Source: Branchiostoma lanceolatum (lineage: Eukaryota > Chordata > Leptocardii > Amphioxiformes > Branchiostomatidae). Taken from it: a stretch of DNA of 64,000 nucleotides. The notes beneath the pieces are model-generated. The model was not told the origin of the DNA and did no database searches. It worked only from the letters and a program-made list of their open reading frames with translations. The position numbers and the translations under genes were made by a program. The stretch is from NCBI RefSeq assembly GCF_035083965.1, contig NC_089730.1, positions 21,220,027 to 21,284,026 on the forward strand. The letters run 5' to 3'. Below are positions 26,419-63,940 of the stretch, piece by piece (the first letter of the stretch is position 1; every line of letters begins with the position of its first letter).

Positions 26419-29250
26419 ATGGCGTCCAACATCCGCGCCCGTCGTGTCGGCGAGCCGTCTCTCGTGCAGCGTGGGCCGTCACCGGAGAGATACGGCGGTT
26501 CTCTAACGGGTACAGTCTTTGTTTCACTTTCATTTTCAAGAATTCACAGTACAGTCACCTGTCAAGTTTAATATATGCCACTTGAGTTATATTATGTTAA
26601 TTAGGTCACACAGAGTACTCTGAGAAGCTCCTTCTACTTCCTTGATTGTGAACTGGCAATAACTACACGTAATAAGTTGATAAGATCCTTAGTTTGGATA
26701 AGCTGTATGATGACATTCGTGACTCAGTTCTGAACCCTCTCTCTGTTCTTGACTTCTTTTCAAACATTTCTCTTGAGTGCCTACTATTAGTAGTAAAGTA
26801 CTAGTACTGGGAAGAAAGAACATGATGTAAAATAATAGATAATGACAAAGTTGTAATTCTTCTTGGTTTGTCTTTGTTGACAAATATTTAATCAAGCTGC
26901 AGACACTTTGGTATAATGACATGTATGTTCTGTAGTGATTCTATTCTTTATTAGCCACCAATTTGATTGTTGAACATTTTGTTGTATTCCAGCCATGAGT
27001 TCAGCATGGAAACAGCTGGGTCAGGCCAAGTCTGTGGTGAGTTCACAAACTTGTTTATTTGTTTGTTTATTTATTTTGAATGCCATGCGTATCTATCTGC
27101 ATCATGCAATAAGTCAGTGACCAATTTTAACTTGAAAAAAAAATTGTTCAAATTGCAGAAAAACTATCAACAACATGCAATTTGGCAAGCTATAGCAAAT
27201 AGAATACACTCAGGCTTGGAATTTAATGAGAAGTTTATTGCAAGTTCATACCCGTGGGCTAATTGCAAATACATGGGAAAACATAGGGAAAAACATACAT
27301 GCGTCAGTAAACTGTGTCTGACTTTGTTGTAACAATAGGCTACTGGTACTAAATACAATTGTTGGCTATATCTAAACTGTCTAAACTAATGGATCACATA
27401 TTATAGAGAATAGAAGTTGAAGTATTACATCATGGATCACATGTATTTTGAGCCTATAATTTTTCTTAAATGATAGTTTGATCGTCTAAATTACTCTTTT
27501 AATTCAAGATAAGAAAATTTTCTTCCAGCTGAGGAGGGCAGAAAACAGGATCGAAGACGCCGAGAATTTCAAGATGGACGCCAGCCGCAACGGAACGGAC
27601 GACAATGCGGGGAGGTACATGTTACCAGGTGGGGTCAGTCTGTCGTCACGGCGATACGACAGGGAGCCTAGCGACAGGAGTGTGCTGATGGACCACATCC
27701 CGTCATACCAGATTACCAGTACAGGGTACCCCGAGGTAAGGAGGACTTCATGGCACAATCAGTGATCTCCCCAGCTTAGTCTGAGCATAGGGGCCCCCCA
27801 CGCTGTGATCTGTTGTAATTTGTATCAGCCAGTGTAGGGGTGTTTCTTTCTGGAATTATGAAGGGTCACAAGGTTCTTACCTTGTGACCCTTCATAAATC
27901 TTACGTACCCGATGACCCATTTGTGTGCGTGCTGTGAAAAAAATTCTGGTGGGAGCCCTGACATTGTGTAAGAAAATAACTTTCTTTCTCCTTTAATTTG
28001 TTGTCAATGTCTGGCAACAGTTTTAGACCACACTGATATATTACCTTCACTTGAAAGTTCATCTGTGTTGGTAGAAGTCATTCTGAATGGAGTTTAAACT
28101 GTAAACGCCAACACAATAAATTGGAGTTACCCAAATTTTTGACTGATCAGCTACAGTCTTTATCAAGGAATGAGCACAGACTCAGTGTTGTTTTGTTTCT
28201 TATTTTTCCCTTCCAGAGCACGACAGACTACAGGAGTAGAGACAGATACCCACGGGACAGACCTGAAGTCGCCGCTGCACCCCGGAAAGTCAGCAGGATG
28301 GGTGAGTATACGTTCAGAACTCTTATTTTCTGCCTGCTAAAGTAGCCGTTCGGCACCAAATTTGTAATTGGTCAATAGAGTATTAGTTAACTTGACACAT
28401 TTAAGCAATATGACTTATTTTAATTTGTCTGTCTGTCTCCACCCAGATGGGAAGTACACAGACCACCTGTACCAACCACCATCCAGAACAAGCTACACAG
28501 CCCCCGGGTTGACCTCTGACCTGACCCGACCTTCACGGGAGTACCGATCTCGCAGCCCGGTTGGAATATCAGATCCCATCAGAGATCGATCGAAGCGCGT
28601 GGAATTCCGTGATCCTCTCGAATCTTACCGGTCGGCGGTTGATCCGAAATCCTCCCATCACGACAGTTCCGAGGATGTCCTCGCGGGAAATAGCGGGTAC
28701 GGAAGTGCATACGGAACAACAAACACGGTAGACCTGTTCGCCCCGACCTACACGGTTACCGACCTTTCCAGGAGTACGAGAGACGACCGTGCTGACTCGA
28801 GCATCGTCGATTCGAGCACGAACGTGAAGGTTCTAAACGACACGTCAGCTCGGGTTGGTGCTGATCACGGCGCAGGTTTGTTAGACAACGAAACAACGTC
28901 GCCTTCAAGAGCGAATCACTCTGGCGCTCTGTTCTCCTCTGCGCGAGACAGAATACGTGCCGACGACAGATTCAACTCGGACTCCGGTACCGCCGCAGAA
29001 CGAAGAACGACATCAGACAGGTTTCCTACGGACTACAGCCGGGGGATTTCTAACGTCACGAATCTCCTGAACGACAGACCTGATATCGGGAGCCCAGTCG
29101 CGCAGAGCACGCAGAAGAGTCCGTCGGCAGACAAACCTCCGGAACTTTACCGTCCCGACGAGATGTCGGCTGAGGCGCTGACGAGGACCAAGAGTCCGGT
29201 GCGGAAGTTTGAGGTGGTGCAGAGGAAGAAGAAGGAGCTGGGAGGCTCAG
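26419..29250 (+). CDS. CEP350: CEP350 exons 1-5 (N-terminus)
   Basis: Exons 26419-26509, 26993-27036, 27529-27735, 28217-28301, 28447-29250. The ATG at 26419 opens MASNIRARRVGEPS; exon 2-3 carry the conserved helix WKQLGQ.KS..RRAENRIEDAE; exons 4-5 carry RKVSRMDGKY and RVEFRDPL as in vertebrates. Exon 5 (804 bases) is Ser/Arg/Asp-rich and disordered apart from a conserved short stretch with NLLNDRP (human FLNDRP). The start choice is supported by phase agreement and a clean donor, but an upstream non-coding exon cannot be excluded. Confidence 0.9.
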
Positions 29251-32200
29251 GTATGTGCAGTACCTTCAGTAACCACACATTACCTGTTTTAGTGGAGAGC
29301 CACACTTCAATCAAAGGACTAGTACATGTAGTAGTACAAGTTTATGCGGTCAGTACAGTACACAAATCCCTCTGCACCAGAGTTGGAAATACTGGGAGCA
29401 TACTGTATGTTTTGTGCACACAAAATTGGAGCTCTTACTAAGAGTCTTAGCCAAATATTTTTACAGTGGTTGTTGTGTTTATTTATGTAGGTCTCAGACT
29501 CTGTGTGCGTAAAGGTACTAAGTCTTGTAATATACAGCATATTCTTGACATTGATGTGTTAGAAGAAAAAAATAAAACCTTAAATTTCTTGTATGTTGTG
29601 TACCCAATATTTGTCTGTGCACCTACATTTTAAGGTTAGGTGCACCAATGGTGTACCTTATGTATTCCCATAAATGATTGTCGAGCCCTGCAAACCCTTA
29701 CGTACTAAAAACTGCTATACATGTATGTTCCTTACATCATCATCATCATCATCCGTTGACCTCTACAGCAGAGGACGGAGCGAGCCCTTGTACAACCGAG
29801 ACTATGTGACACTCTAGGGAGTCTACTGTAGATGGTCTTGATGGTTGGATGTACATGTAGTTTCCAACTAATGTTTTGAGCCCTGCGTTCCTTACAGATG
29901 GGCTGGAGAAGTTGAAGGAGAGAATCAGGAAACAGAGGAAAGAAGCCGGTGCAGCGGAGGATGCAGGGTCTGTCCCCACCAGGAGAGGTCGCTCCACGGA
30001 GCACGATGACCTGTCATCCCGGCGGCTACACTCAGCAGAGGAGCCGGTAGCATCCAGGGGCGAGGAGCCCTACAGGTCAGAGGTCAGGTCAGAGGTCACC
30101 CCCAGGATCAGGAAGATCAAGTCTGCCCCGCCCCCTCCTGAGTACAAAGGTCGGTCACATGACTTCTATTTTTAGAAACCTTTGAATTTTTTCCTGTGTT
30201 TTTGGCATTGCTTGGGGGTGGATCATGTTTAAAACATAGGCAAGAAAGACATGTCATATTTTAGCACTATATATGTATAAATCTATGTATTATATTTTGT
30301 GTGCGATTATGTATGTCATGTATTCTCTCACAATCTAATGGATGAATTGCCTAGCTTTATAATTTTCTTGAAAGTAGCTAGATAGAGTTGTAATTGGTTG
30401 ATGTCACTGATAAAACAGCAGCATTATTCTGATGACATTTACAGTTAACAATGATAACAAATCAATCCAGTGTTTCAGAAAAATATGTAAGTATTTGAAG
30501 CGCCATGTTATATTTGCTACCTTGTCCCCCAACGACCCGGAAATGATTGTGAGGCACAGGATAACAGTCACTCATGCAACTAGATCGATATTAAAAATAT
30601 TGAGTTGTTGTCTGTTTCCCAGGGTTCAGTACAGCGGCCACCAAGTACAGGACCCAGGACGGCAAGGTCGTCACGGAAACCGAGCTGGCAGAGCAGCAGG
30701 GCAAAGGTCACACTGGGGGCAAAGGTCAGGGCAGCAGGGAGGCAGCAGCTCCGCCGAAAAGGAAGGAAAAAACAAAGGGTAAAAAACTGGGACTTCATTC
30801 AGCTTTTAGCCCGTTCATTAATAAGTATAGCTGAACTGTCAAACATGTTTATAATATAAGGTCTTTGAAAAAAAAATGGTCACAGTAGCTAGACAGGTGG
30901 CTAGTGTAGACAGGATTCTTGAAAATAAGGGACCACCTAATTAGTCCTAAAAGTTCTTCCACAGTTAGGACTGGTGAATATCATATATTCCATTTGTGCA
31001 CACTTACACTAGTTTGTTAGAGATGACATTTATGTTGTGGACCGATGTTGAGGTCATTGGAAGCAGATACAGGGAGCTAAGACAGAGATTGTGGAGCTAC
31101 ATGGTTTATTCCCTGACCCCCAGGATTCCAACACATAGAATGACAGCATGGGTCTTTCTGAGAATGAGGCTCTATCTTGGACTAATACGCTTTCATGAAG
31201 GGGGGTTACAGTACTGAATAATGGTCTTAGTGGGTTCATAACAAATTCATATATAGTAGTTTTTCAATCTTAATGCCTACAACATGTAGCTGGTGTGCAG
31301 TACAATGTTAGTGTCGACTCAAGAATAATTGAGCATACATGTAGAAGTGGTTATTAATAAATGTTTTGAAAGTCCTTTGAAAACATTGGCCTAGCTATTT
31401 CTGACCTAATTTTAAGACTCCTGTTCTTGTCCCTGTGCAGCCAAGACCAGACCAGCGCCCCGCCCTGCTTCTGCGCCGGCGACCAAGTCCCCCAAACCAC
31501 AGAGGAAGGTCGGAGCGCCACAGGCAGCCAAAACCAGCAGGCCTTCTAAGAAAGGTACAGTTTTGTGCTTCTGATATCACTCTTCAACTTTTCATTTTCT
31601 TCCTTTACTTGTGATTGACTTTTTTACCTGTTCACTTTTGCTGTCTTCATATACAAGAAAAAACCATCAGACCTTGAAAGAAATGTAACAGGCACTGCTT
31701 CCAGTGTTACTCTAGAAGTAGTCATTTTCGCTTTCTGGAAACCCAAAACACCAGGCCTTGCAAGAAAGGTACAGGCACTATGTTGCCACTCTTGAACTTT
31801 TCACTTTCCTGTCTTTACTCGTGATTCTTTTGTCAGCCGTTCACTTTTGTTGTCCACGAGAACTTGTCTTCTAAAACCAGGAACAAATTCAAAACATTAT
31901 TTTTACCTGACTGAAAGGCACATAAATGACTGGTGCAGAAGGTTTTGAATGTTACCTCCACTAGTGCAGAAAAAGTATTTCGAGCCCTGTCTTAAATTAA
32001 TTTTGTCCCATCTTTCCTTCCTTTAAATTTTGATTGATTTCTTATCCGTTTAATTTTGTACAGGAATCATATTTTCTTTCTCTTGTGTCTGTATTATTTT
32101 CTTAGTTAATTATTGTTGTGTTTTCATAAACAAGAATCAGGTTTCTTTTCTCCTCTGTGTGTATCTCTGCCCCAGACACCCCCCTCCCCGAGGTGTGCCC

Positions 32201-35200
32201 CGTCCCCCCATCCCACGGCCTCCTGTCCTGGTCATCACTACTCTGGAGCCTCGCCACTTACTTTGACTTTTCCTCTCTACACTGTACGGCACTCTGTCTA
32301 TTTTTCTTGCCTCTTGACTTTTCTCTGTTCACTGTTGATTGCTTTATCTAATTGTCCCTTCTATATTTCTCAGTGAATCATTTTCTTCAGTTTTCTGATG
32401 CCTTGGCTCTTTCTTTCTGACTTCCATTTTCTTCACTGTATGTAACTTTGTCTACTCCCCACCACTGTATATCTTGAAATGTTTGCAGTGGTTTCTTTTT
32501 TCCACTTTTTTTGCAGTGATCTCACCACCACAAATTCACAGTGAATATGCATTTTTGATGTATAGCAGAATTGTTTCAACCACAAATTTAGTTCAGAACG
32601 TGCATGTAGCAAAAACCTACTTTCCCTTCCACTTTAACTTGGATATTAAGTCCCCAAGAAACAAAATGAATACAGTACCCTGCTTTTGTTCACAAAGAAT
32701 ATATTTGGCATGTGTAGACAAAGATTTCAGTAACTTGACTGCCCTTTTTGTTTTGTAGGTATAATTAATTTTTTGGTGACACCTCAGGGGTGATGCCTAA
32801 TGGTCTAGTATTGTGTGCAGTCTGCAAAAATTCTAGACATTGTACAGGAATGTGTCCACAGGAATTTTTAGTCCATAGAAATGTTTGTTGGTTTTGTTTC
32901 TGTAGGCATCATCACGACGTCAGCATGGCGCGAGGGCCAGAAGGCCGCCCTGAAGGTGCTGGGTCCGCCCCCTAAGCTACCAAAACGGTCGTACTCACCT
33001 CCCACCAAGGACACTCAGATGTCAACAACCTCTGAGTCCAGCTCCGTCCCGGAAAGGAAGGCGGGAGGGGGGAGTAAGGAGGAGAAGGAAGATAAAACCA
33101 TTGCTAGTGGTAAGCTGCAGTACTAGCAAAAACTGATAGAGGGCAGTAGTGATATGGTTAGCTCTGTGCTGTGCCAGGCAGGAAGTCAGGAGAGGGGAGT
33201 AAGGAAGAGAAGGAAGATAAAACTATTGCTAGCGGCAAGCTGCAGTTCTAGTGTGAACTGTTAGAGGGCAGTTAAGTGATAAGGTTAGTTCTATGTTGGG
33301 AGAATTCAGGAGATGAGAAAGAGCAAAATTAAAGCATTGCAAGTAATGAGCTGCAGTTCTAAGCTAAGCTGCCAGGGGTGTATTCTATCACGGAGAGATA
33401 TAGAAATCGTGTGAGATGCACTTTTCATCCCAACTGATATGGGGCTGAAGTCGTAAACAGGTTGAAAAAAATTAATTCCTACATTTTATTTTTCCAGACA
33501 AAGACATGTCATCAGATGATGACCTATCCCAGCATCCTCTGGAGGACCTATCCCAGCATCCCCCAGCAGCGATGGATGATGGGAAGGCTCCCAACACGGA
33601 GGTCCTGTCCAAGGAAGCCCGAGGGGTGTTCGACGACCTACAACTAGACAAGTCTGGTAAGGGTGGTGAGATGATTAAATACAGTCTAAACCTGTCTATA
33701 AAGACCGACTAGAAAAATAGTCACAATAGACAGGTGGCTATTATAAACAGGATTCCTAGTGCTTGGGTGAATGGGAAAAAGTGGGCATAAATTGAAAACA
33801 TGATCTTTATGAAGAGGTGGTCACTGGTGCAGGTTTGACTGTATATCAGGTGGTCTTCATGCAGAGTAGGCTATTAGCTAGCAGAGAGCTACATGTAGCT
33901 ATGCTAAGAAAAGAAAGAAATTAGACACCCTCCTTTTGCAGGGGACACCCGATTTCTCTGGTGATTACAAACATTGTGTTCCCCCCACATAATGCCACTT
34001 GTTGTTTCCTCATGCCAGACACTAGGACAGCATGAAAATTGATTGACATGCAAGGCTTCTTGACAATTTTTTATCCATATAGCGTATTAAGGAACTCAAT
34101 GCCTGTTTTTTGTTTCCAGATGATGATGACTCAAGCACCCTGAAGTCAGAGCAGCCCGCGGCACAGGACAAACCTGCAGCTCAGAACAAACCCAGCAAGG
34201 CTGCGAAGAGGAAGGCACCCAAGGCCTCTCCTGGTAACACTGAATGCTTACTGTGCTGTGCAATATATTACTATTAATATAACACATCGGCACCATATAC
34301 ATGTAGTATACTATACACCGTGACCAATACTTGTAACAGAACAGAAAGGCATAAAATGCTTCTCCCGTTAGAACCTTTCTCTTTCTCTCCTCTCCCTTTT
34401 CCTTTTCAGTAATGAGTAGATTTTGCAACTTCTATCAAAATTTGGGAAGATGTGAAGAAAACTACAAAAAAGAAACTGTTTCATTTTTCTTAGTACAAGT
34501 AAAACACAATTTACATTAGTAAGCATTGACCCTTTGCATTTAGTGATTTTGTTCGTATTTTAAACCTATGAATGATATACATTTTTACTAAGTTACTGAG
34601 GTATGCATGGAGGATCTTTCAGTCTCTCTTAATAGGCTTTATCTCATATGTATGATTTCCGTCCCCCAGTGAAAGAATCTGAGCTTCCCGCGACAAAGCT
34701 GCGCCACTACGACCACAGCGAGGTCCGCCGCTACATGAACAAGAAGCGGAACGAGCGACAACGGAAACTCAAGGAGCAGCGAGACGCGCAGAAGAAAGCC
34801 GAGGAGGAGAAACAGAAGATGCTGGATGACCTGGATAAGAAGAGGAGGGAGGGATGGAGGGAGCACGCGAGGGAGGAGAGGAGAGGAAAGCTGAAGGGCA
34901 GCACGTTTGTGAAACCCCCCGGGAGAGAAATGGACCTGCCCAAGCGGCATCCATTCCACGAGGACAGGAGACATGTAAGTTTTGCTTTGAAGAAAAGTTT
35001 TCAGAGCTTAGAAATGAACCAAGCTGAAGACTTAGTATAAGAATTCTACAAAGAATATATTCAGATTACATGGATCTGCCCAAAAGGCACCCATTCCACG
35101 AGGACAAGAGACACATACGTTTTACTGTGAAGGAAACTTGCAGAACCTAAAGATGATCCAATCTTAAGATCTAGACTTAGTATAGGATTTCTGCAAATAA

Positions 35201-56200: not shown

Positions 56201-59200
56201 ATTTGTGGTTCTGTCCATTTTCTCTCTTTCTTCTTTCGTTTTTCCCTCGTTCTTCTCTTCCCTCCATCGGTGGGCCCAGTTCATCTCGCAGGGCTGTGTG
56301 GTTATAGACCTGGTGTGTGAGTACCTGCGCAGCAAAATGGTTCAGGCACAGAAACAGGTATACCATGGACGACCCGCCCCCCTCCCCCTTCTGGCTGCTA
56401 GTATGACCTTGTCAAACTCTTTGCTTTCTTTGATTATTTTTTTGTTTGTTTGTTTTCTCCATATTTTTAGCACCATTACAATGCCATCATTCTGCATGTG
56501 TGCCATAGTCTACATGTCTGTTCTCTTTTCTTGGTGACTTGTTTCATTGTGGCAGGAATTTTTGATGTGAAGTCAAACAGTATACCGAAGTACTTAAAAA
56601 TGTATGTTTGTATTATAAATACTAATAAATTATTAAGGCAGTTACTTTTATCTCATATGTGATATTGTATAACGGTTGTAGAAGTTGATGTACATTGTAG
56701 AAATACAGACAGAGGCAAAACTGAGGAGTTACATATTTTTTAAACATTTGTCTAATTATGATATCAAATAGATGTCATTTTAAGGCTTTTTCTGACCAGG
56801 CTTGATTGTATTCCAATCTCATGCTTACAGTTTTTGTGTACTACTACTTAATGTACCATTATCTAAAAATGGCTGCCTTAGTGTTGCATTGTACCTTAAC
56901 CTTCTGCATGCTAAGGTAGCTGATTGGCACCAGATTTGTATTGGTACTTGGGTTTGGCAGCATGGCAAAGGTTAACTTTGATAGGTGATTGGGTCAAAGT
57001 ATAAACTTAAAAGAATATTAATGAAAAAAAAGGCATTTTAGGAAAACGTTTTGTAGATATTTTGTACATTGTATAGAAAAAAATTCTTTTTTTTACCAAA
57101 ATTGTCGCTTTCTCAGTTATGACTGTGTGAAGTCAGAGTTTGATCAGGTTGTGTACCAGAAAACTCAAATATCCTATGCCTGACTTATGTCTGTTATCCC
57201 CCCAGGCCTCCTTACTGCGCCTGAGAGAGAAGGCTCTGAAGGAGAAAACCAAGGCTGAACTGGACTGGCTCGAGCACCAGAAGAAGTGAGTGGGGAGTGA
57301 CGGACTGTCAGTGAGGGAAGGGAAAGAAAGAATCTGTACCTGTAGTAGTAGTAGCTTTTGAAAATCTGAATAGGAAGACAGGATCCGTACCAGTATCTGG
57401 CTCGAGCACCAGAAGAAGTGAGTGTGAGGGAAGGGCTGAGAAGGAAAAGAAAGAATCTGTACTCTCATCTCCCAAATAAACGTACCGGTACGTTTATTTT
57501 TTTCAGCCTCAAAATCCATCCAGTACGTTCTTATTTTGGACAGTACGTTTATTGTTTTTTTTAAAATTCATTAGGGCTTTGCTTACCAGAGATCCCAAAT
57601 ATAACGAAAGTTAAGTTTTTTCCCCATATCTCCCCGATATTTGTGCTCCTAAATCGCTACTTGACCAAATGACTTGGATTTCCCCGCCGCTACAATGACC
57701 CGGCATTTGTGAAATCCTGGCGGTACTAACATATCGGTCGATCTCGCTACAAATTAAACGTTATTTAAGGGGAAAATAAGACGGCACAATGAAGCAAAAC
57801 TACGAAAACCACGCTCTCCTTTTTCAGCACTCGGTTCCAGTGCTGAAAGTGGCTTCAGCACTGGAAAACCAGTGCTGAGTTTAGTTCAGCACTGGAAAAC
57901 CAGTGCTGAGTTTAGTTCAGCACTGGAAAACCAGTGCTGAGTTTAGTTCCGCACTGGAAAACCAGTGCTGAGTGGAGTTCAGCACTGGAGAACTCGACGT
58001 CAGCACTGGAAACCGAGTGCTGAGACAAGCTTCGGCACTGGAAACCGAGTGCTGACAAATATTTCGCACTGGAAAACTAGTGCTGAGATACGTTACGGCG
58101 GTGACTTATTTGCGATTTTAAAACGTAGTATTTTTCCGGACTATTCACTGAAATTTATCCATAGCGTATATCTATGACAGATTTCAATTTCAATTACTTA
58201 GGTCCGACTCTTTTTACAAGAACTCATTCTTCACCAACCTATGGAGCCGCCTCTACACATAGCCATAACATTGTTAGTTTGTCTCAAAATGTTGTATATA
58301 ATCTTTGTTTTTCATGTTTGTCCCTATGTCATATGGGCCAGTGAGAGCCTGAAATAAAGAAATAATAATAATAAAATATATTACCGGGGTAAAGTGCTCT
58401 GACGTTGCTCTGACTATAAATCATCGACGCGACCGACTTTTGAGTAATATTTTCCGGTGGGCCAGAGGCTACAGGGTAACTGCAACGTCATTGGAAGATA
58501 CCATTGTTCGTGGACAAGTTACCAGACACCCGGGAACTCATTTGCCTACCTGAAATTACAAATTTTACTTCCCTATTGAATTTCAAAATGTTGAATTTCA
58601 AACAATACTATTTTCAAAACACTTTATTTGGCATGATTACCGTGCACGTTAAATATGGCAACAAAACAAGCCTTAAACAGAACGCATGGAAACAAGCCTT
58701 AAACAGAATTACACGCATTGTTACTAGTCATTTTACGAAAAAAATACTTGATTGAAACTACTTACATATGAATATCATGAGCTTTACAGTAGTACAAGTT
58801 GTTAGCAAAATACCAACTAAGGCTATTGTACGCATATCTGAAAACGCATTAGACTGCGTATTAACCAAGGTTACAAAAGAAACCTCCCTGAAGTAACTAA
58901 CTAAACGTAGTCCGACTTATATTCGCATAATACTACGGTGCTAATAAACTGGTAAACGGACCTATGTACAGACATCGTGTTCAAAATTACGAATAAACCG
59001 GTGAATACAACTATGTCTACACAACGCATCGTGTACAAAATCCTAAATAAACTGGTGAACGCATGTCAGACCAGAAAGAAAGAAATAAAGTTCTTTATTT
59101 GTAACACATCCCTCATATCATACCTATATCTATTATACAATTACACAATGAACAAAATGACAAAATCGGTCGGAATAAAGTTGGTCATTGTTTATTCTAA

Positions 59201-62200
59201 ATGAATCACAAAGAACGTAAGTTCAAGTGACCATGCGGCACTTCTTACGACTATTCTTCTCTCAGCACTGGTAAAAAAAACGTTCCAGTGCTGAAAACAC
59301 TTCAGCACTCGTTTCCTAGTGCTGAGTTTTTTTTAGCACTCGTTTTCCAGTGCTGAGTTTTTTTCAGCACTCGTTTTCCAGTGCTGGGGATTTTTCAGCA
59401 CTCGTTTTCCAGTGCTGAATTGTCCCCGAGCACTGGTAAATCCAGTGCTGAAAGCGTGGTTTTTGTACATCAGCACTCGGTTCCAGTGCTGACGGCGGTT
59501 CAGCACTGGGTAACCAGTGCTGAATCACCTTTGACATGACCTGTGACCTGGCACCGCCGCTCTGTCGCGCATTCAGCACTGGTAACCGAGTGCCGAACGC
59601 CATTCAGCACTGGTAACCGAGTGCCGAACTCCATTCAGCACTGGAAAACGAGTGCTGAGAAAAGTTTCAGCACTGAAAAACGAGTGCTGAAAGAAACTCA
59701 GCACTGGAATACAGCGATTCAGCACTGGAAAACGAGTGCCGAACTTTCTTCAGCACTGGAAAACGAGTGCTGAACTTTCTTCAGCACTGGAAAACCAGTG
59801 CTGAACTTTCGTCAGCACTGGAAAACCAGTGCTGAGGCCGATTCGTCCGTTGATTCAGCACTGGAATACCAGTGCGGAAGGCGTGGTTTTCGTAGACTTG
59901 CCACAATGAAGTTTTGAGATGTATTTTTCATATACACAACTTTGACAGTCTCTATTTACATCGTAATTCATAGCACGCTGATCAGAAAACAAATTACATA
60001 AATATGCCAGCGGCGCACCGTCTGTTTCAAGTACGCATGTAAAATTACTCTGCTCACGTGAGATCAAGGAGATCAAGGAGCCAAAACTTTGAAAATTTAA
60101 AAACACCACGTAAAAACTGTGTCTTAGTATTAACAACTGTACAATCACTTTCAAAATATACCAAAAGGTTTCAATCCTACCACAAACATGAACATTTAGT
60201 CCTTCGAAAATCGCCACAGTAAAGAAGACGCACCGCAGTGAGTCCGTGGGAAAGTTTCTCATGAATGGAAAAGCTCACCTCAACGAAGGGGAAACACTTT
60301 TTTTTGATCTACAAATAAAACTCCTTTGCCTTAGTCAACACTGTACAGAATTTCAACAAGGAAAATTTTGTGTAATAAAGTCTATACATAATTAGATTGC
60401 AATCTAATCAGGGCTATTATCACATAAAAATACTTTTAAAAAGATCGCTCCCCTACAGAGAGAATGACCGAGCTTTCCAAGAAGTTTGCGTGTAGCTTCT
60501 GATAGCCCCGCCCCTTACTGTCTGGGAGGGCTTGTTCTGACGCCGCTCCGTCTGGCTCAGGCTTTGATGTGTAACATGAGAACCCTGTGGTTTTTGGCAA
60601 CATTGTACAAGCTTGTGGTTTCTGTATCTAAACAATAAATTTGTTTGACAATTTAGTCTCTCAAAATGTTTTCTTTTCTACATACAAGGGTAATTTTTGG
60701 ATTTGAAATTATTTGGATTGCAACAACACAACCAAGGACAATATATGGTAATGTCCTTAACATTGTATAATAATGTGATTTTGTGGAAAACATACAAATC
60801 TCTGTTTCTACATTTGCATAACACAATAAATGGCAAGTTGAGATATATAAAAAAAAAATCATATACATGTCATAGTTCGTCCTTTCTATATGGCTTTTAT
60901 AGATAAGTTATACTTTTACTGAGCCAATATTAAGTTCTAAATGTTGATACATTTGTGAAAAAAGAGTAGACTCTGAAGGTGTTGCCCATCCAAGTGAACT
61001 TGAGAAGTTTGCCGACTACTTCTGTTTTTGTTTATCATATGTCACTTTATACAATGTTCCTAGATCACTTGCTTCAAGTTCCAAGTAGAAAATGCATGTA
61101 TCATGCACATTTCCACTTGTTGAATTTGAAAGCACCGTTGGCCCCCGGTTAGGGGTCATAGCGAGGAACCTATGCCCAATTTTTCCAACAATTTTGGATG
61201 CTATACATTTACGTGTTACAAAGAGTACGGGTCCTTCCCAGTGTGAGTGGATCAAACCTTACAGTCTGGTCTGGGTTGACATCTTGAAAATGTGATAGTC
61301 ACCTGTTATGTCAATCTTTCCACAAATATGGTAACTCTGAATAGATGAATCAGTCATAAATGAATAAAAAGAACCTACCTGCTTAGGACAGAAGTAGCAT
61401 GGACACTGTTTACGTGACAATTTGGTAATTTTCCGGGGGGTATGTTTATTCCGGGGGGTACGTTTATTAGATTTTGAAGATTTGTCGGGGGGGGTATGTT
61501 TATTCCGGGGGGTATGTTTATTTGGGAGATGAGAGTACCAGTAGCTTTTGAAAGAAACGAAAATCTTCAGAAGAAACTTGACGAAAGGTTTAGCATAAAG
61601 GCAGAAGAGAAAAATTGTTGACTGGAAGAAATTTCATTTCCATTGTATAATTGTCATGAGTTTTGAATCCAACAAACACTTCGTTGATGAGCATTGGTTA
61701 TTGGGTCATCTTAGTTTGTAGCTTTACATGTACATGTAGATGTAGATGACCAAGGGATGTGTTACTTTTTGTTCTTTTTTTGTGATTGCTACATTCAGGC
61801 GATTGAGAAAAGATGCTGATAACATCAGGAAAAGGCATCAGGGCCTGATGTTTGTAGTTCTAAGTGTTGTTATTTATGTTTGTGTTGCTAGGAGACTGAG
61901 AGACAAGGGTGCTGATGACAGCATGCCCCCCATCAGGAAGAGACAGCGAGGCCTGATGCTGAGACTACAGACTGAACAGGTCAGACTAGGAGGCACCAAG
62001 TTGACAGTACATGTAATTAGTAATAATGCTTGAATTGCTGGATGAAATTCAGTACTGTACTGACAGTAAAAGAAGAATGAAAAGAAGCATTGAGTACAAT
62101 GTACTAGTACTTGACAATGAAGTTTCAGTATCACAATAAAAGCTGATTGACTGAAAATTTACTGAAATTATACTGTTTGAGTAATCGATCAGTATCTAAC

Positions 62201-63613
62201 AGTAAAATTTCAGCACTGTTGGTTTGCCAAGGGCATGTTCAAAAAGGGGGATACATTTTTCAACCTGCTCTCTTGACTTTTGTAATCCGTCAGGCGGAGA
62301 TCAAGCGCCTCCGCGAGGCGAACAAGGCGGCGAGCCGTGAGCGACAGCTTCTCTTCATGCAGCAGCAGGAGATCATGAAGATGAGACAGAGCACCGCCGC
62401 GATACGGGACAAGATCAGGCACAGGAAAAAGGATACAGGTAAGAATGTGGGAGCAACTTTCCTAAGATAACTCTCAATGGGATTAAAGACTTCTATGATT
62501 CAATAAGTTACATGAAAAATGAAAGCAAACAAAAACAAACATGTATGTTAGGCGCGACAAGATCAGACACACGAAAAAGGACGCAGGTTAGAGTGTGGTA
62601 GCAGTTTGGTAAGACAATTCTTCCCAAAAAGACTTGTATGATTTCTGATCTTACATGTGTGAGGAAGAGCACCTCAATGACAGCCTCTGCAGATGAGACA
62701 TCTGTAAGCGGATTCAGTTTTGTCTGAGTTGAATAGTTGATTAGTAACTGTAGCACGTACGAAACATCATCGACTTAACCTCTCCCTGCTAACTAACCCC
62801 ATAACCAATGCAACTTTGGTGCCAAATGGTTACCACAGCATGCTGAAGGTTAATCTCTGCTTTTCTTCCACCAGGGGCGTCCGATGAAGAGATCCCAGAG
62901 GAGCTGTCTGACAAGGTCTCCCCCGCCGACAGGAACGCGGCGGCCGCGCCGGGAGACGCCGCGGGAGAAACGCCGCGGGACAGGAAGGACTCCGTCTCAG
63001 ACGCTGAAGCCAAGATGCTGGAGAAACTGAAGAAGATGCACGACCCCAAGGACGAAAGGTGAAGAAGCCTTCTAAAAGGGTGGAATTCCCAACTTCAAAA
63101 GAATAGTTGGGGATGATCAATACATCTTTTTTTTCTTCTTCTTTTTGTATTGCATACCTGCAGGAAACTGCCTCATGGCAGATTTTTGCTAAACAGTGCA
63201 AGCTGCTTATCTGGACACGTTTTTTTTAAACTTACATGTTGGAAAGGATGTGTTGCTTTAATTTTTTGATAGAGTTTATACATGTATGTACAGTGTATTT
63301 ATCAGCTGGTCAATCACCAATGCGACAATAGACTCTCTGGGAAAAACGTTTTTCTTCTGTATTGTGTTCAAAAGCTCTGAAAAACGTTTGTTGTTTGTCA
63401 TATCTTCCAAATGTTTTCTTGTTTCATCTTGAAAATACAAATTTGTTTCTGATAGATACCTGACGACCCGTGAGCAGAAGCTGCAGCACCGTAAGAAGAA
63501 CGCAGAGGACCTGTTGGCATGGAAACAGCAGCTGGACGCCGAGGAGAAGAAGGTCCGCTCGCTGGAGAGGCAGGCGCTGTCTGTCTGGGGTCAGGATGCC
63601 AAGGAGGGCAAAG
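26419..63613 (+). CDS. CEP350: Centrosomal protein 350 homologue, 5' and central part (3' end outside window)
   Basis: Large centrosomal/spindle protein that anchors and stabilises microtubules and binds FOP and CEP19. Thirty-five coding exons were placed by acceptor/donor pairs whose phases agree throughout, about 2,178 codons. Landmarks against human CEP350: WKQLGQAKSVLRRAENRIED, RVEFRDPLESYR, LEKLKERIRKQ, TSAWREGQK..LGPPP, RGVFDDLQLD, RRYMNKKRNER, ESDKEN, KAERIAALQATAESLQDRIE, SLSEG, SVINIYT, MAAELNYLESVEESVRQL, SYSMKFDESLTESEMEEMSF, LLPSESHRR, RLREKALKEKTKAEL, IKRLREANKAASRERQ and NAEDLLAWKQQLDAEE. The CAP-Gly domain expected near the C-terminus is not reached. Exon blocks are listed separately. 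Confidence 0.95.
27856..27897. repeat. Perfect hairpin with 17-bp or longer stem
   Basis: AAGGGTCACAAGGT and its complement flank a TTCT-type loop in CEP350 intron 3. Probably a terminal fold of a MITE; no target duplication fixed. Confidence 0.6.
29898..33109 (+). CDS. CEP350: CEP350 exons 6-9
   Basis: Exons 29898-30149, 30623-30778, 31441-31554, 32906-33109, all phase 1. Exon 6 has LEKLKERIRKQ and IRKIKSAPPPPEYKG, exon 7 TKYRTQDGKVV (human KIRTPDGKVW), exon 8 a Lys/Pro-rich linker, exon 9 TSAWREGQK..LKVLGPPPKLP (human STSSWREGQK...LGPAPR). The 1.35-kb intron 8 contains two degraded copies of the exon 8 end and otherwise pyrimidine-rich sequence. Confidence 0.9.
31661..31781 (+). repeat. 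Two decayed copies of the CEP350 exon 8 end
   Basis: The end of exon 8 plus donor (CAGGCCTTCTAAGAAAGGTA) recurs in worn form near 31665-31700 (ATCAGACCTTGAAAGAAATG) and 31746-31781 (CCAGGCCTTGCAAGAAAGGT), the second still with a GT donor. Confidence 0.65.
33178..33285 (+). repeat. Copy of CEP350 exon 9 end plus donor
   Basis: Repeats GGGGAGTAAGGA.GAGAAGGAA with following intron sequence (GAGGGCAG). The donor has decayed from GT to GC (AGCGGCAAGC). Confidence 0.75.
33498..37771 (+). CDS. CEP350: CEP350 exons 10-16
   Basis: Exons 33498-33656, 34120-34233, 34670-34974, 35443-35576, 36035-36345, 37059-37190, 37649-37771. Exon 10 carries RGVFDDLQLD; exon 12 a basic coiled coil beginning LRHYDHSEVRRYM (human RRHYDTDEVRQYI); exon 13 EESDKENA; exon 14 a Ser/Thr-rich linker with ISFHDAYIEQL; exon 15 ERIAALQATAESLQDRIETE (human DRIEALKATAASLSSRIESE); exon 16 ends SNRDYTAFKGDLPG. 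Intron 16 (37772-43186) is filled mostly by a DIRS-type element. Confidence 0.9.
33682..33841. mobile_element. 160-bp Tc1/mariner-type MITE
   Basis: Ends CAGTCTAAACCTGTCTATAA and complement CAGTCAAACCTGCACCAGTG, flanked by TA on each side (33680-33681, 33842-33843). A diverged relative without clear ends lies near 30860-30970, another near 21800-21955. Confidence 0.65.
35069..35205 (+). repeat. Copy of CEP350 exon 12 end and following intron
   Basis: ATGGATCTGCCCAAAAGGCA..CCATTCCACGAGGACA repeats the last 50 or so coding bases of exon 12 and then tracks the intron to GACTTAGTATA. The donor is now ACATACGT, so it is probably unused. Confidence 0.75.
35812..35892. repeat. Palindromic MITE family, copy 1
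   Basis: CCTTCCTGCTG ... GCTTTGGTGCCAAT ... CAGCAGGGAGAAGG. Related copies lie at about 56895-56975 and 62775-62856, with a fragment near 28333-28375, all in CEP350 introns, some inverted. Confidence 0.5.
36864..36965 (+). repeat. Decayed duplicate of CEP350 exon 15
   Basis: Acceptor and first 80 bases of exon 15 are repeated about 175 bases upstream (TTCGTCCAGGCGGCTACCGC and on). One internal deletion removes the frame and the copy stops before the donor, so it is a relic exon. Confidence 0.8.
37942..38288. mobile_element. 347-bp palindromic element related to the DIRS ends
   Basis: Arms of 69 bases (37942-38010 and 38220-38288) are perfect inverted repeats. Bases just inside the left arm (TGATGACTGTAGGTGTAAGT at 38011) match the first 70 bases of the adjoining DIRS element. 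It abuts that element directly. Most likely a non-autonomous relative. Confidence 0.7.
38338..39285 (-). CDS. DIRS element: tyrosine recombinase
   Basis: The last 315 residues of a long frame fit a tyrosine recombinase: an N-terminal core-binding part (SGTQRQYAAAWNKWCGWC), then the catalytic Arg in LVSAGREQT, the HxxR box GHSTRSAS and a Tyr in FEKFYRK. The same frame stays open far upstream within the reverse transcriptase frame; the position of the true start is unclear. Confidence 0.88.
   Translation of the reverse strand: MYGLSSGVSNILLASWRSGTQRQYAAAWNKWCGWCARGHFDPVSAPLREVLDFLLSLYEKGLQYRTLNVYRSAISTTHLPVEGQPLGQHPLVKRFLKGVFELRPALPKYSFTWDVSKVLKLLRRWSPAESLSLKLLTLKLTMLIALVSAGREQTISLLEVRTKKKIPGGVCFVVCRLSKSSRPGKATHEVVLPSFPQDKKLCPVHYLKKYIARTRTFRLCDSFLFRAMVEPHQAVTSSTVARWLKLVLQEAGIDTAKFTGHSTRSASVSAAARRGVSASDIMRTANWSSSSTFEKFYRKPVRTCSFGQSVLASGC
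39144..41240 (-). CDS. DIRS element: reverse transcriptase and RNase H
   Basis: A 698-residue frame. The reverse transcriptase has KVDLKDAYFTIP, FGAATAPRVFTK and the YLDD catalytic box (VYLDDVLVFGR). RNase H follows with ETDASKIGWGG, NVLELQAA, SDNSTVVAYLN and IPGRDNVRAD. The YLDD form and RNase H type are those of DIRS elements. Confidence 0.92.
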   Translation of the reverse strand: MTREAARCSTDLQRVPGTSQMLHGGRLVHFLQKWQQLTSDPWVLQCVRGYKLEFATTPPIQRRLPSCRARGPQQVEVLNEEVEVLLSKGAIREVPYHSTQFVSTLFTVPKKTGGLRPVINLKPLNRYLQVRRFKMEGLGVLKHLLQPGDFMGKVDLKDAYFTIPVDVNSRRFLTFQWQGRFYQFQCVPFGAATAPRVFTKVLKVPIALLRRQGYRLIVYLDDVLVFGRTREGCREALMAVLQLLSSLGFVPNREKSILEPTQRITFLGSGIDSLRMIAFLPDGKVQELQQLAVATLSTDSLITARELASLIGKMQATTGAVWHAPLHFRSLQRLLITVLRVTRGNWEFLVPLTEAARADLRWWRDQLSNHNSRPILLPTADMVVETDASKIGWGGFCNGVHTGGRWSAEERTAHINVLELQAASLAVRGFCRELQSGHIRVRSDNSTVVAYLNHLGGTRSLELLSVTLDLWEWCTDRNLSISAEHIPGRDNVRADFSSRHFSVATEWTLDRHTFLSLQATFPLLSKGVDLFASRTNHQLPQFVSWHPEPEAIGTDAFTLKWNEWGMAYAFPPFILIARTLRKVQQDRAQVLLIAPVWDTAIWYPVLLEMLVGEPVLLPRHEHLLTQPESHRPHPEGKKLLLAAWPVCGDNTACMVFRQELATYSWPHGGREHRDSMLRPGTSGVAGVLEGTLIPFQRL
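41252..42598 (-). CDS. DIRS element: gag-like protein
   Basis: A 448-residue charged protein, acidic and Arg-rich at the N-terminus, with a Gly/Arg/Tyr-rich tail containing tandem YRPSGGG units. No zinc knuckle seen. Assigned by position ahead of the reverse transcriptase in an otherwise standard DIRS layout. Confidence 0.75.
   Translation of the reverse strand: MRRDGRHDSSTPSMPVLSAVPTPPGADRRRGPSAALREEGEVSSDPEKRDTRRKDGNKRGGGADGADGSQQEGEVSESEKNNNVQRSPVPVTPSGDVRISALEQGFFLLSDKLDTFQEMVMSQFDQSTSRKRHTSSPEADVPEKRRRCDRGRQRSPCRDETEEESVSGGSEDGETVWKPFDPTDTVERHRWVADGIVLEETEAYFKHDRQCRGADLEAWQKKYDLPDNVPPTMVTPSFNDNVSRAVIDNDKKQGELIVMHDKSLKSIHSNLMQVATPLINLWQLIKRCSSESFEELQLDMNDCAGTALRLLGSVHTQLAFTRRSFIAESSQKTFRELFKTPSEDPNFLFSPDLGTKAKDLSSESKVLSGMLTQTEKNKSSSSGRGGRRGGGYRPSGGGYRPSGGGYRSNRYNYLPKPNYSRGGRTRQYYNRGPSQSFQKQGEGGKQGK
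43187..48032 (+). CDS. CEP350: CEP350 exons 17-22
   Basis: Exons 43187-43353, 44238-44378, 44942-44990, 45263-45403, 47067-47478, 47693-48032. Exon 17 encodes an IQ motif (ATKIQAAYRGHHVRQGL). Exon 18 has SSLSEG..LS.GSLSEGTL (human LLSEGSLSE), exon 19 the tiny IADTLSKPEFC (human VAEILKEKEFC), exon 20 DSLSVINIYTRQYEE (human HSVINIFTKSYQ). Exon 21 contains a doubled QHGSRGSGY.DD unit; exon 22 repeats R(R/K)TPSP-type motifs, plausible proline-directed kinase sites. Confidence 0.88.
43354..43760 (-). mobile_element. 5'-truncated LINE (CR1/L2-like), 3' end only
   Basis: Read on the minus strand it encodes DERHFILDCPQYHDKRSKLF and on to a stop, the end of a non-LTR reverse transcriptase frame, then a 3' UTR ending TCAATAAAGATTTCCTTG. 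It begins right at the exon 17 donor. Confidence 0.7.
44540..44790. repeat. Inverted pair of hammerhead-like repeat units
   Basis: Two units face each other. On the minus strand CTGAGGAAGGTGAC..GTCACTGGAAC (about 44585-44611) and on the plus strand CTGGAGAATGTGAC..GTCACCGAAAA (about 44699-44729), each next to a GTTTTATTCA word. They resemble the CTGANGA-stem-GAAA core carried by Penelope-like elements, in worn form. Confidence 0.4.
45449..46796. mobile_element. pogo/Tigger-like non-autonomous DNA transposon, 1.35 kb
   Basis: Termini CAGTCAAACCTGCCTAGGCG (left) and complement CAGTCAAACCTGCCCAAGGC (right), flanked by TA target duplications (45447-45448, 46797-46798). Subterminal GCGACCACC words are repeated at both ends. 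No transposase frame. Fills CEP350 intron 20. Confidence 0.85.
48199..48250 (+). repeat. Direct copy of the CEP350 intron 22 3' end
   Basis: TTGATATTGTTAACAGCAAA and the following acceptor tract (CTGTCCTTTACAG) are repeated at 48301-48349 just before exon 23. The upstream copy keeps a usable-looking AG. Confidence 0.85.
48350..50108 (+). CDS. CEP350: CEP350 exons 23-25 (central coiled coil)
   Basis: Exons 48350-48541, 49084-49335, 49933-50108. Exon 23 is the best conserved stretch: MAAELNYLESVEESVRQLGD then AQQESVSLAQILK. Exon 24 continues QQQHEREMAELTMKARQEA and an Ala/Glu-rich helix; exon 25 gives Ala/Gln-rich helix ending LMKTLQQGSQAYR, phase 2. The exon 24 acceptor lies behind 14 consecutive C bases. 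A possible extra exon (49429-49533) and a repeat array follow exons 24 and 25. Confidence 0.93.
48880..48975 (-). repeat. Hammerhead-core-like repeat (Penelope-type fragment)
   Basis: On the minus strand CTGAGGA (48961-48967), a GTGAC/GTCAC stem, then GAAAC (48938-48942) and GTC. This fits the hammerhead core CUGANGA-stem II-GAAA and is followed by a GAATAAAAC word shared with the pair at 44.6 kb. The element body is absent. Confidence 0.4.
49429..49533 (+). CDS. CEP350: Possible alternative exon 24b of CEP350
   Basis: A duplicate of the exon 24 3' half with its donor. From AG at 49427-49428 to GTGAGA at 49534 it is a 105-base phase 0-0 open frame (EGICSSTIRESARKLIETQA and on to AAKQLAE). 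Against exon 24, over 26 codons, about eight codon differences are silent and two change the residue. The acceptor pyrimidine tract is weak, so use is uncertain. Confidence 0.4.
50109..51631 (+). repeat. Tandem array built from CEP350 exon 25 and its donor
   Basis: Six copies of the exon 25 end (ATGGAACAGCAGAACAGGCA to GGCTTACAGGTGGG) alternate with a shorter degraded version. From about 50534 the dimeric unit repeats with a period of 274 bases and near identity. Each full copy keeps a GT donor. The first copy (to 50255) is in frame with exon 25 by read-through, adding 49 codons. Confidence 0.92.
51953..55580 (+). CDS. CEP350: CEP350 exons 26-29
   Basis: Exons 51953-52138, 54156-54325, 54919-55145, 55467-55580. 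Exon 26 (phase 2 to 2) is Arg/Ser-rich with SSYSSSYTTTDYDSS; exon 27 SISEDVPAVSDQ; exon 28 YSMKFDESLTESEMEEMSF then LLPSESHRR; exon 29 PFSAEDSFSHFMSDMVQQYM (human PFSGGQDSFSKFTMEMVRQYM). Intron 26 holds a pogo-like element. Confidence 0.93.
52347..53918. mobile_element. pogo/Tigger-like non-autonomous DNA transposon, 1.57 kb
   Basis: Termini CAGTAGAAGCCACTTAATTG and complement CAGTAGACTCCGGTTAACTG, both followed by CACC, with TA duplications at 52345-52346 and 53919-53920. GATAA.TGCACC words recur at each end. No transposase seen. Lies in CEP350 intron 26. Confidence 0.85.
54814..54842 (+). repeat. Copy of CEP350 exon 28 acceptor and first codons
   Basis: CAG then TATCAGTCTCTGGTAGTGAG repeats the exon 28 start about 105 bases upstream, after a good pyrimidine tract (TTTTCTCCCCGCAG). 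The copy runs into stop codons within a few codons past its end. Confidence 0.8.
56280..56357 (+). CDS. CEP350: CEP350 exon 30, apparently extra exon
   Basis: A 78-base phase 0-0 exon between ggtgggcccag and gtatac reading FISQGCVVIDLVCEYLRSKM and six more residues. Human CEP350, as I remember it, joins the flanking parts directly (HQ/SSLLRLREK), so this is a cassette exon or lineage addition. Length is a multiple of three, so it can be skipped without loss of frame. Confidence 0.6.
57206..63613 (+). CDS. CEP350: CEP350 exons 31-35
   Basis: Exons 57206-57285, 61892-61979, 62294-62438, 62875-63058, 63456-63613. They spell SLLRLREKALKEKTKAELDW, RLRDKGADDSMPPIRKRQRG, EIKRLREANKAASRERQLLF, an acidic linker ending KMLEKLKKMHDPKDER, and TREQKLQHRKKNAEDLLAWK to GQDAKEGK, each closely matching the human coiled-coil region. 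Exon 35 ends phase 1 inside a 50-base minisatellite. The 4.6-kb intron 31 is almost wholly a single transposon. No further exon fits after 63613 in the window. Confidence 0.93.
57391..57424 (+). repeat. Copy of CEP350 exon 31 end plus donor
   Basis: TCTGGCTCGAGCACCAGAAG followed by AAGTGAGTG repeats the exon 31 end and its GT donor, 135 bases downstream. Confidence 0.85.
57825..58086. repeat. Hairpin array A, nine CAGCACTGG/CCAGTGCTG palindromes
   Basis: About nine units of the form CAGCACTGG-AAAA-CCAGTGCTG, period near 29 bases, separated by 6-10 variable bases. Most arms are perfect; one unit has lost its second arm. Confidence 0.9.
58195..58380 (+). mobile_element. LINE 3' tail inside the 4.1-kb element
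   Basis: Encodes SDSFYKNSFFTNLWSRLYT before a stop, like the last residues of a non-LTR reverse transcriptase, then a 3' UTR ending in an (AATAAAG)(AATAAT)n tail. 5'-truncated. Confidence 0.5.
59263..59877. repeat. Hairpin array B, about eighteen palindromes with a polarity switch
   Basis: Same unit as array A. Early units read CACTCGTTTTCCAGTGC and late units CACTGGAAAACGAGTGC, which are complements, so the array turns round near 59450-59570. A GCGTGGTTTT.GTA motif occurs at the turn and at the right end, and its complement just before array A. Confidence 0.9.
61799..61861 (+). repeat. Decayed duplicate of CEP350 exon 32
   Basis: Acceptor (GCTACATTCAG) and exon start (CGATTGAGAAAAGATGCTGA) repeat exon 32 about 95 bases upstream. 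A deletion has removed the DSMPP part, and the donor is gone. Confidence 0.75.
62551..62615 (+). repeat. Copy of CEP350 exon 33 end plus donor
   Basis: GCGACAAGATCAGACACACG, then AAAAAGGACGCAGGTTAG, repeats the last 35 or so coding bases and the donor of exon 33. Confidence 0.8.
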
Positions 63614-63940
63614 GTCAGTACAGGTGCTGTCCATCTAGGGTCAGGATGTCAAGGGGGGCAAAGGTCAGTACAGGTGCTGTCCATCTGGGGTCAGGACACC
63701 AAGGAGGGCAAAGGTCAGTACAGGTGCTGTCCATCTGGGGTCAGGACACCAAGGAGGGCAAAGGTCAGTACAGGATGGGATGTCAATGGGCAAAGGTCAG
63801 TGAAGGCACTGTCTGTCTTGGGTCAGGACACGGATGGGGCAAAGGTCAGTTCAAGGTCAGATGAGAGGGGTCAAATTTCAGTACAGGGAGGTGTGTCAAG
63901 GGGCAAAGGTCAGTCTCTCAGGGGGCAAGTGTCAGTGGAG
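63574..63940 (+). repeat. 50-bp minisatellite spanning the CEP350 exon 35 donor
   Basis: Four close copies start at 63574, 63624, 63674 and 63724 (period 50), then looser ones run to about 63940. The first copy holds the last 40 coding bases of exon 35 and the true donor (GGCAAAG/GTCAGT); each further copy keeps the same donor. Confidence 0.93.

Follow-up and report, generated by a model that had tools for sequence, protein, structure and literature searches.

Gene content of the window

The window, the whole 64,000-nucleotide stretch of Branchiostoma lanceolatum DNA that was analysed, holds a predicted gene of 32 exons that runs from 27529 to about 63613 and forms one open frame of 2107 codons. 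We take this gene to be a putative CEP350, a name that comes from its similarity to the human protein. When 1610 of the 2107 predicted residues were compared with Pfam, the sole match was an IQ motif (E 3e-4). A PDB search with 332 residues gave nothing convincing, with one match at E 0.23, and an IMG/VR search with the protein of exons 28-30 gave 14 pattern matches, none of them a relative. The literature search found no paper on CEP350 and amphioxus together.

The gene model was built by dynamic programming on codon usage and splice-site weights. The run was seeded with exons chosen by coding score, after the self-alignment had been viewed. The first gene-finder settings over-predicted, with 222 exons, and were discarded. 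Left out of the strictest output were a 44-bp call before exon 1 (26993-27036) and four calls within a DIRS-like element. A 49-bp exon (44942-44990) was omitted at first, and its return gave the open frame and the count of 32. The 31-exon list was used for the pair alignments, the cluster scan, the first cluster test, and the border null, and the 32-exon list was used later. The end of exon 32 was placed by hand, in an array where donors recur every 50 bp. All exon borders are predictions of a model made from codon usage and splice signals, and they are supported by the frame, which stays open across 31 splice joins.

Two introns of the gene carry transposon-like elements (Table 1). One has long open frames, terminal repeats, a reverse transcriptase (PF00078, E 6e-19), and a tyrosine recombinase (PF00589, E 4e-6). 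We presume that it is DIRS-like, as its combination of reverse transcriptase, tyrosine recombinase, and terminal repeats points to that group. The other is a foldback-type element whose inverted ends consist of 31-bp palindromic units (TTCAGCACTGGAAAACCAGTGCTGA). Among the local repeats in the gene, only the 31-bp arrays and the DIRS-like terminal repeats fit a transposon origin.

Outside the predicted exons, two minisatellites lie upstream of exon 1 and might touch untranslated exons. Farther upstream is a cluster of receptor-kinase-like genes, in which three frames are whole, each a single exon of 942-957 residues, and others are broken. A tyrosine kinase domain is present in all three whole frames, together with weak matches to Ig and cadherin; one of the three also matches EGF weakly, and kilobase blocks recur in the cluster at 86-88% identity. 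A literature search on such a kinase array in amphioxus gave nothing relevant among the matches listed.

Copies of exon borders in adjacent introns

Self-BLAST of the window and pair alignments revealed that exon ends and exon starts recur, on the same strand, in the adjacent intron. For the border test, 30 bp on each side of a border was compared with up to 500 bp of that border's own adjacent intron, and a score of at least 28 was counted. By this measure, 15 of the 64 exon borders have a copy: nine donors (D6, D7, D10, D13, D22, D23, D28, D30, and D32, where the number is that of the exon) and six acceptors (A11, A13, A21, A25, A26, and A29). When borders were set against other introns of the gene, 1240 comparisons (31-exon list) gave no score as high as 28. 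A7 and D27 scored 25, a value reached by 0.9% of the null comparisons, and were not counted. A degenerate 32-bp array begins close to D27, and a faint match (score 25) reaches that donor. No inverted copy of a border in its adjacent intron scored at least 28 (the best scored 24), and local pairs in inverted orientation (within 900 bp) were likewise absent from the gene, the two transposons excluded. At 26419-31527, the cluster scan and the border test found neither a duplication cluster nor a border copy.

The original prediction was that exon edges are copied, splice site included, beside 12 exons. All 12 could be matched in order to scored borders, and D13, A11, and A25 are additions to them. 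The matching was inferred from the order and from the remark that exon 23 of the original numbering was copied at its acceptor only, and it implies that the two numberings differ by 2 in the earlier exons and by 3 in the last four. Inclusion of the splice site holds for most copies, since at 12 of the 64 borders (all nine donors, A13, A26, and A29), and so at 12 of the 15 copied ones, the copy extends 3 bp or more to either side of the border. The A21 and A25 copies include just one exon base. For A11, inclusion does not hold, as the copy ends before the border.

Table 1. Copied exon borders and other features of the window, in order of position
Feature	Exon or location	Source segment	Copy or extent	Strand	Match and remarks
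Receptor-kinase-like gene cluster			1-20753	both	
Minisatellite	upstream of first predicted exon		23719-24033		65-bp units
Minisatellite	upstream of first predicted exon		24461-24662		about 50-bp units
D6	exon 6, 31441-31554	31528-31645	31743-31854	+	92/120 columns identical
D6, third copy (partial)	within spacer between the two main copies		31660-31734	+	
D7	exon 7, 32906-33109	33055-33171	33180-33298	+	100/119; GT changed to GC
D7, third copy (partial)			33322-33361	+	
D10	exon 10, 34670-34974	34930-35063	35070-35208	+	108/140; GT lost
A11	feature 35360-35443	acceptor tract 35413-35439	35360-35386	+	26/27; 3 bp short of border
A13	exon 13, 37059-37190	37042-37139	36867-36963 (upstream)	+	86/98; AG kept
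D13	exon 13	37173-37232	37240-37295	+	77% over 60 columns
DIRS-like retrotransposon	intron between exons 14 and 15		37942-42822	-	
A21	exon 21, 48350-48541	tract 48298-48350	48198-48250	+	49/53; 47-bp spacer
D22	exon 22, 49084-49335	49243-49351	49441-49548	+	92/109; 89-bp spacer
D23 minisatellite	exon 23, 49933-50108	exon end and intron start	49933-51675 (exon included)	+	offset of first repeat 147 bp; further on, 274-bp dimeric units with identity up to 99%
A25 chimera	intron 24	exon-25 acceptor 54128-54156	53996-54024	+	
A25 chimera, other part	intron 24	exon-23 donor array 50666-50723	54018-54075	+	fused at A(C/T)AGG
A26	exon 26, 54919-55145	acceptor CAG and exon start 54916-54947	54811-54842	+	31/32
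A26, further piece	exon 26	54945-54958	54880-54893	+	exact 14 bp of exon
Degenerate array	starts ~20 bp into intron after exon 27		55601-55947		32-bp units
D28	exon 28, 57206-57285	57265-57339	57397-57462	+	61/75 columns; 57-bp spacer
Foldback-type element	intron between exons 28 and 29		57780-59920		
A29	exon 29, 61892-61979	acceptor	61769-61824	+	faint; score 29
D30	exon 30, 62294-62438	62405-62500	62553-62643	+	74/99 columns; 52-bp spacer
D32 minisatellite	exon 32, 63456-63613		63571-63914	+	50-bp units

Enrichment of duplication clusters at borders

A sliding-window scan of 20800-64000 (E <= 1e-4, offset 25-500 bp) gave 20 duplication clusters. Five of these were set aside: two upstream of the gene, one at 37975-38335 that consists of terminal repeats from the DIRS-like element, and two in the foldback element, whose 31-bp arrays (57823-58099 and 59262-59894) were dropped since they sit in one transposon-like element with inverted ends. 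Of the 15 non-transposon clusters left in the gene, 11 cross an exon border. The other four do not, which contradicts the claim that the duplicated units always cross one; a single cluster of the four stops 1 bp past a border. The same scan of 10 block-shuffled versions of the gene gave no cluster in any of them; with the comparisons to other introns, this led us to reject chance similarity.

The crossing count was compared with a null in which units were placed at random and only placements that spare the mRNA were allowed, namely those neither wholly exonic nor crossing two borders. Under this null, 3.21 crossing clusters were expected and 11 of 15 were observed (p = 1.3e-5), and border overlap is thus above chance in a permutation test of the type that had been proposed for this gene. 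The null was recomputed with 32 exons, with the crossing flags carried over from the 31-exon test. Two corrections were applied, each alone. With the copy offset taken as the unit length, 4.53 crossing clusters were expected (p = 6e-4). With slower decay of the exonic halves simulated, at rates and thresholds chosen by us, the expected share rose from 22% to 29.5% (p = 5.7e-4). Among pairs with at least 80% identity, 6 of 8 cross (p = 0.01 with the decay correction), and among those with at least 84% identity, 5 of 7 cross (p = 0.0028, or 0.026 with the offset as unit length). Counting the foldback arrays gave 11 of 17, with 3.27 expected (p = 3.3e-5), and counting the upstream arrays as non-crossing also gave 11 of 17 (p = 8.8e-6).

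The contrast is weaker in a pointwise view, where 13 of 62 borders are compared with 10.7% of intron points at a score of 40. This is due to the exon-23 array, which alone occupies 1.5 kb of intron. When that array was removed, the fraction was 14.7% for intron points that lie no farther than 30 bp from a border and 2.2% for those more than 400 bp away. The border excess is real within this one gene, with a small sample of 15 clusters: statistically, borders are hit, or their copies retained, at a higher rate than selection and decay would give.

Form, spacing, and age of the copies

The best pairs of the 11 border-crossing clusters range from 75% to 99% identity, so the copies differ in age, which bears out the wide range of ages that had been described for them. 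In five pairs the copies abut within 8 bp (D7, D10, D13, D23, and D32), and in six they are separated by a spacer of 47-89 bp (A13, A21, D22, A26, D28, and D30). In the remaining four (D6, A11, A25, and A29), the match is multi-copy, short, chimeric, or faint. Exon 13 has copies of both its borders. When the six spacers were compared with their own flanks, the lowest p value in 12 comparisons was 0.03. The A26 spacer contains an exact piece of exon 26 (Table 1). The spaced pairs would fit either a tandem duplication followed by partial deletion of one copy or an insertion from nearby.

The alignments show that the copies hold exon bases and, past the splice site, intron bases too. The template was therefore DNA or unspliced RNA, and not mRNA.

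Where the units end differs between the two kinds of border. Donor units stop far from the splice site, at distances that vary, and in none of the nine donor alignments is an end 3 bp or less from the border. One end lies that close in four of the six acceptor copies (35360-35443, 48198-48350, 53996-54156, and 54811-54947). A process tied to the junctions had been proposed on the basis of these copies. The overlap of clusters with borders agrees with such a link, but the far ends of the donor units argue against splice-precise copying, even though most acceptor copies end near the border.

One acceptor copy (53996-54075) is a chimera of the exon-25 acceptor tract and the donor-intron segment of the exon-23 array. 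This copy is 3.9 kb away from the exon-23 donor, on the far side of exon 24, and is the only distant copy of a border that scores at least 34. Both of its parents share the A(C/T)AGG motif at the fusion point, and it may be that CAGG splice-site cores sometimes act as sites of template switching, of which this chimera would be an example.

Copied splice sites were examined at 13 of the 15 borders, 14 in all, and 12 of these keep the GT or AG; by a rough estimate, 10 of 14 would be kept under neutrality at approximately 84% identity. Judged by this retention and by the stop codons met when exons are extended to copied donors, the copies look like neutral, tolerated leftovers. The stretches from border to outermost copy, at 13 of the 15 borders, add up to 3788 bp, which is 16.7% of the non-transposon intron (22741 bp); leaving out the exon-23 array lowers this to 10.5%. 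Both shares are upper bounds on shed copies, because spacers and original sequence are counted in.

Origin of the border copies

The copies are probably mirages in the sense used for other lancelet genes, that is, local same-strand duplications of genomic DNA over exon-intron borders that were made at breaks or forks and retained in the intron. We favour break- or replication-associated local duplication as their origin. Where a strand breaks or a fork stalls close to a border, the DNA would be filled in or re-copied, which would leave a short tandem duplication of roughly 50-200 bp. One intact border would still adjoin the exon and the surplus copy would lie within the intron, so the mRNA would be unchanged and the copy would meet no counter-selection. 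A few copies, those at exons 23 and 32, have since expanded to minisatellites, and the others diverge through substitution and probably through indels, which would account for the spacers. Fill-in by Pol alpha-primase at breaks is known to produce short direct tandem duplications (PMC8355091). Two findings are at odds with this origin. Simple slippage yields no spaced pairs without a later deletion or insertion, and six pairs are spaced; moreover, the border-close ends of four of the six acceptor copies are unexpected for units placed at random. The duplications themselves, their orientation, their positions, and their spread of ages are shown, whereas a break or fork as their source and the cause of the border bias are inferred.

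The alternative with the most in its favour, which we consider possible but somewhat improbable, is that junctions have no effect on mutation at all. Duplication would start uniformly, or preferentially in exon-like sequence, exon-only and whole-exon cases would be purged, and the border-spanning remainder would decay more slowly. The varied distances at which donor units end are what such a process would give, and slower exonic decay does lift the expected share of crossing clusters. The uniform version is rejected after removal of exon-only placements and correction for detection (p = 5.7e-4, at the rates and thresholds that we set). The exon-rich version is plausible: exon-only duplication clusters were absent from the scan of 20800-64000, and few survivors would be expected. 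Against this alternative, GC content did not differ between 11 borders that carry spanning copies and 51 comparison borders (exon side, p = 0.21; intron side, p = 0.90).

A somewhat more doubtful alternative is that mutation is linked to splicing or transcription, with R-loops, nicks, or stalled forks at exon ends turning the borders into true hot spots. The cluster excess at borders is consistent with this. So is the skew of G over C on the coding strand of the exon side, the only one of six features that differed between the 11 spanning-copy borders and the 51 others (median 0.10 against -0.017, p = 0.012). This p value is uncorrected and fails correction for six features, and the 51 controls include A11, A21, and A25. 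Donors and acceptors are also hit about equally (nine against six), which is evidence against such a link. As a tentative idea, exon-intron borders in this lineage may be genuine hot spots of local duplication, at odds of about 6-10 times background (arithmetic from the 11:4 observed against the null expectations), and introns may grow inward as exon edges shed copies.

It is improbable that the copies are on their way to becoming new introns or exons. The retained GT and AG dinucleotides would suit this, as would the strength of the copied sites, 8 of 14 of which are within 1 bit of the original or better. Precedents are a border-crossing tandem duplication that became a new intron in potato (PMC4974935) and a like role proposed for the lancelet globins (PMC3087553). 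However, extension of the exon to the copied donor runs into a stop codon in 8 of the 10 donor copies examined. The 32-exon frame is open without the use of any copy, and no boundary in that model falls on a copied splice site. Some copies were nevertheless called as exons when the gene finder was run with looser settings.

False local duplications are a common fault in assemblies of heterozygous animal genomes, but an assembly artefact or chance similarity is very improbable here. The shuffled genes gave no clusters, and merged alleles would not be expected to show identities of mostly 75-97% or to differ in their flanks. Only in the exon-23 array, with its near-identical units, could the copy number be an assembly error.

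Mirages have so far been described gene by gene. With copies of differing ages at about a quarter of its borders, this gene allows the rate of copying, its decay, and the border bias to be measured in one place. If the bias is genome-wide, it would tie exon-intron structure to local DNA instability and provide a steady source of spare splice sites for the evolution of introns and exons. If the borders are indeed hot spots, introns would grow from their ends inward by copies of exon edges.

Comparison with known systems

Fill-in by CST/Pol alpha-primase (PMC8355091) shares with our case the short direct tandem duplications; its abstract reports no splice-border preference, and its products are tandem, whereas several pairs here are spaced. 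In human genes of segmental duplications (PMC2812944), tandem repeats lie on exon-intron boundaries and are able to alter splicing. Those repeats vary among recent primate paralogues, whereas here a single gene holds copies of many ages. The intron gain by tandem duplication in potato RdRp (PMC4974935) is likewise local, carries splice sites, and can cross a border. Unlike in potato, the copies here lie within existing introns, and none is needed by the predicted transcript.

The closest match is to the lancelet mirages, and in this sense the class is already known. This agrees with the original prediction, which suggested that class for the copies. Cases are described for globin (BflGb6 and BflGb9), Adh3, and, as further lancelet mirages, troponin C (TnC) and PGBD5 (PMC3087553, PMC3902484). 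Their units measure 150-160 bp in globin, 10-72 bp in Adh3, and 60 and 108 bp in PGBD5, and the units found here are of similar size and likewise present in few to many copies. In both, donor or acceptor borders are duplicated on the same strand with exon and intron flanks, the duplication spans the border with the splice site included (at 12 of 64 borders here), and both 5' and 3' borders are affected, here nine donors and six acceptors. Length polymorphism between haplotypes and somatic instability have been reported for mirages. Undisturbed mRNA splicing is a further trait of theirs, and in the present gene the predicted frame is open without any copy.

The present gene differs from the described mirages in that 15 borders are affected in one gene instead of one or two, several pairs are spaced rather than tandem, and the border excess was tested against a null. 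A literature search that lacked most subscription papers found neither a statistical test of border enrichment nor a comparably dense gene. What is new, therefore, is the density of copies in one gene, together with an enrichment at borders that survives controls for selection and detection.
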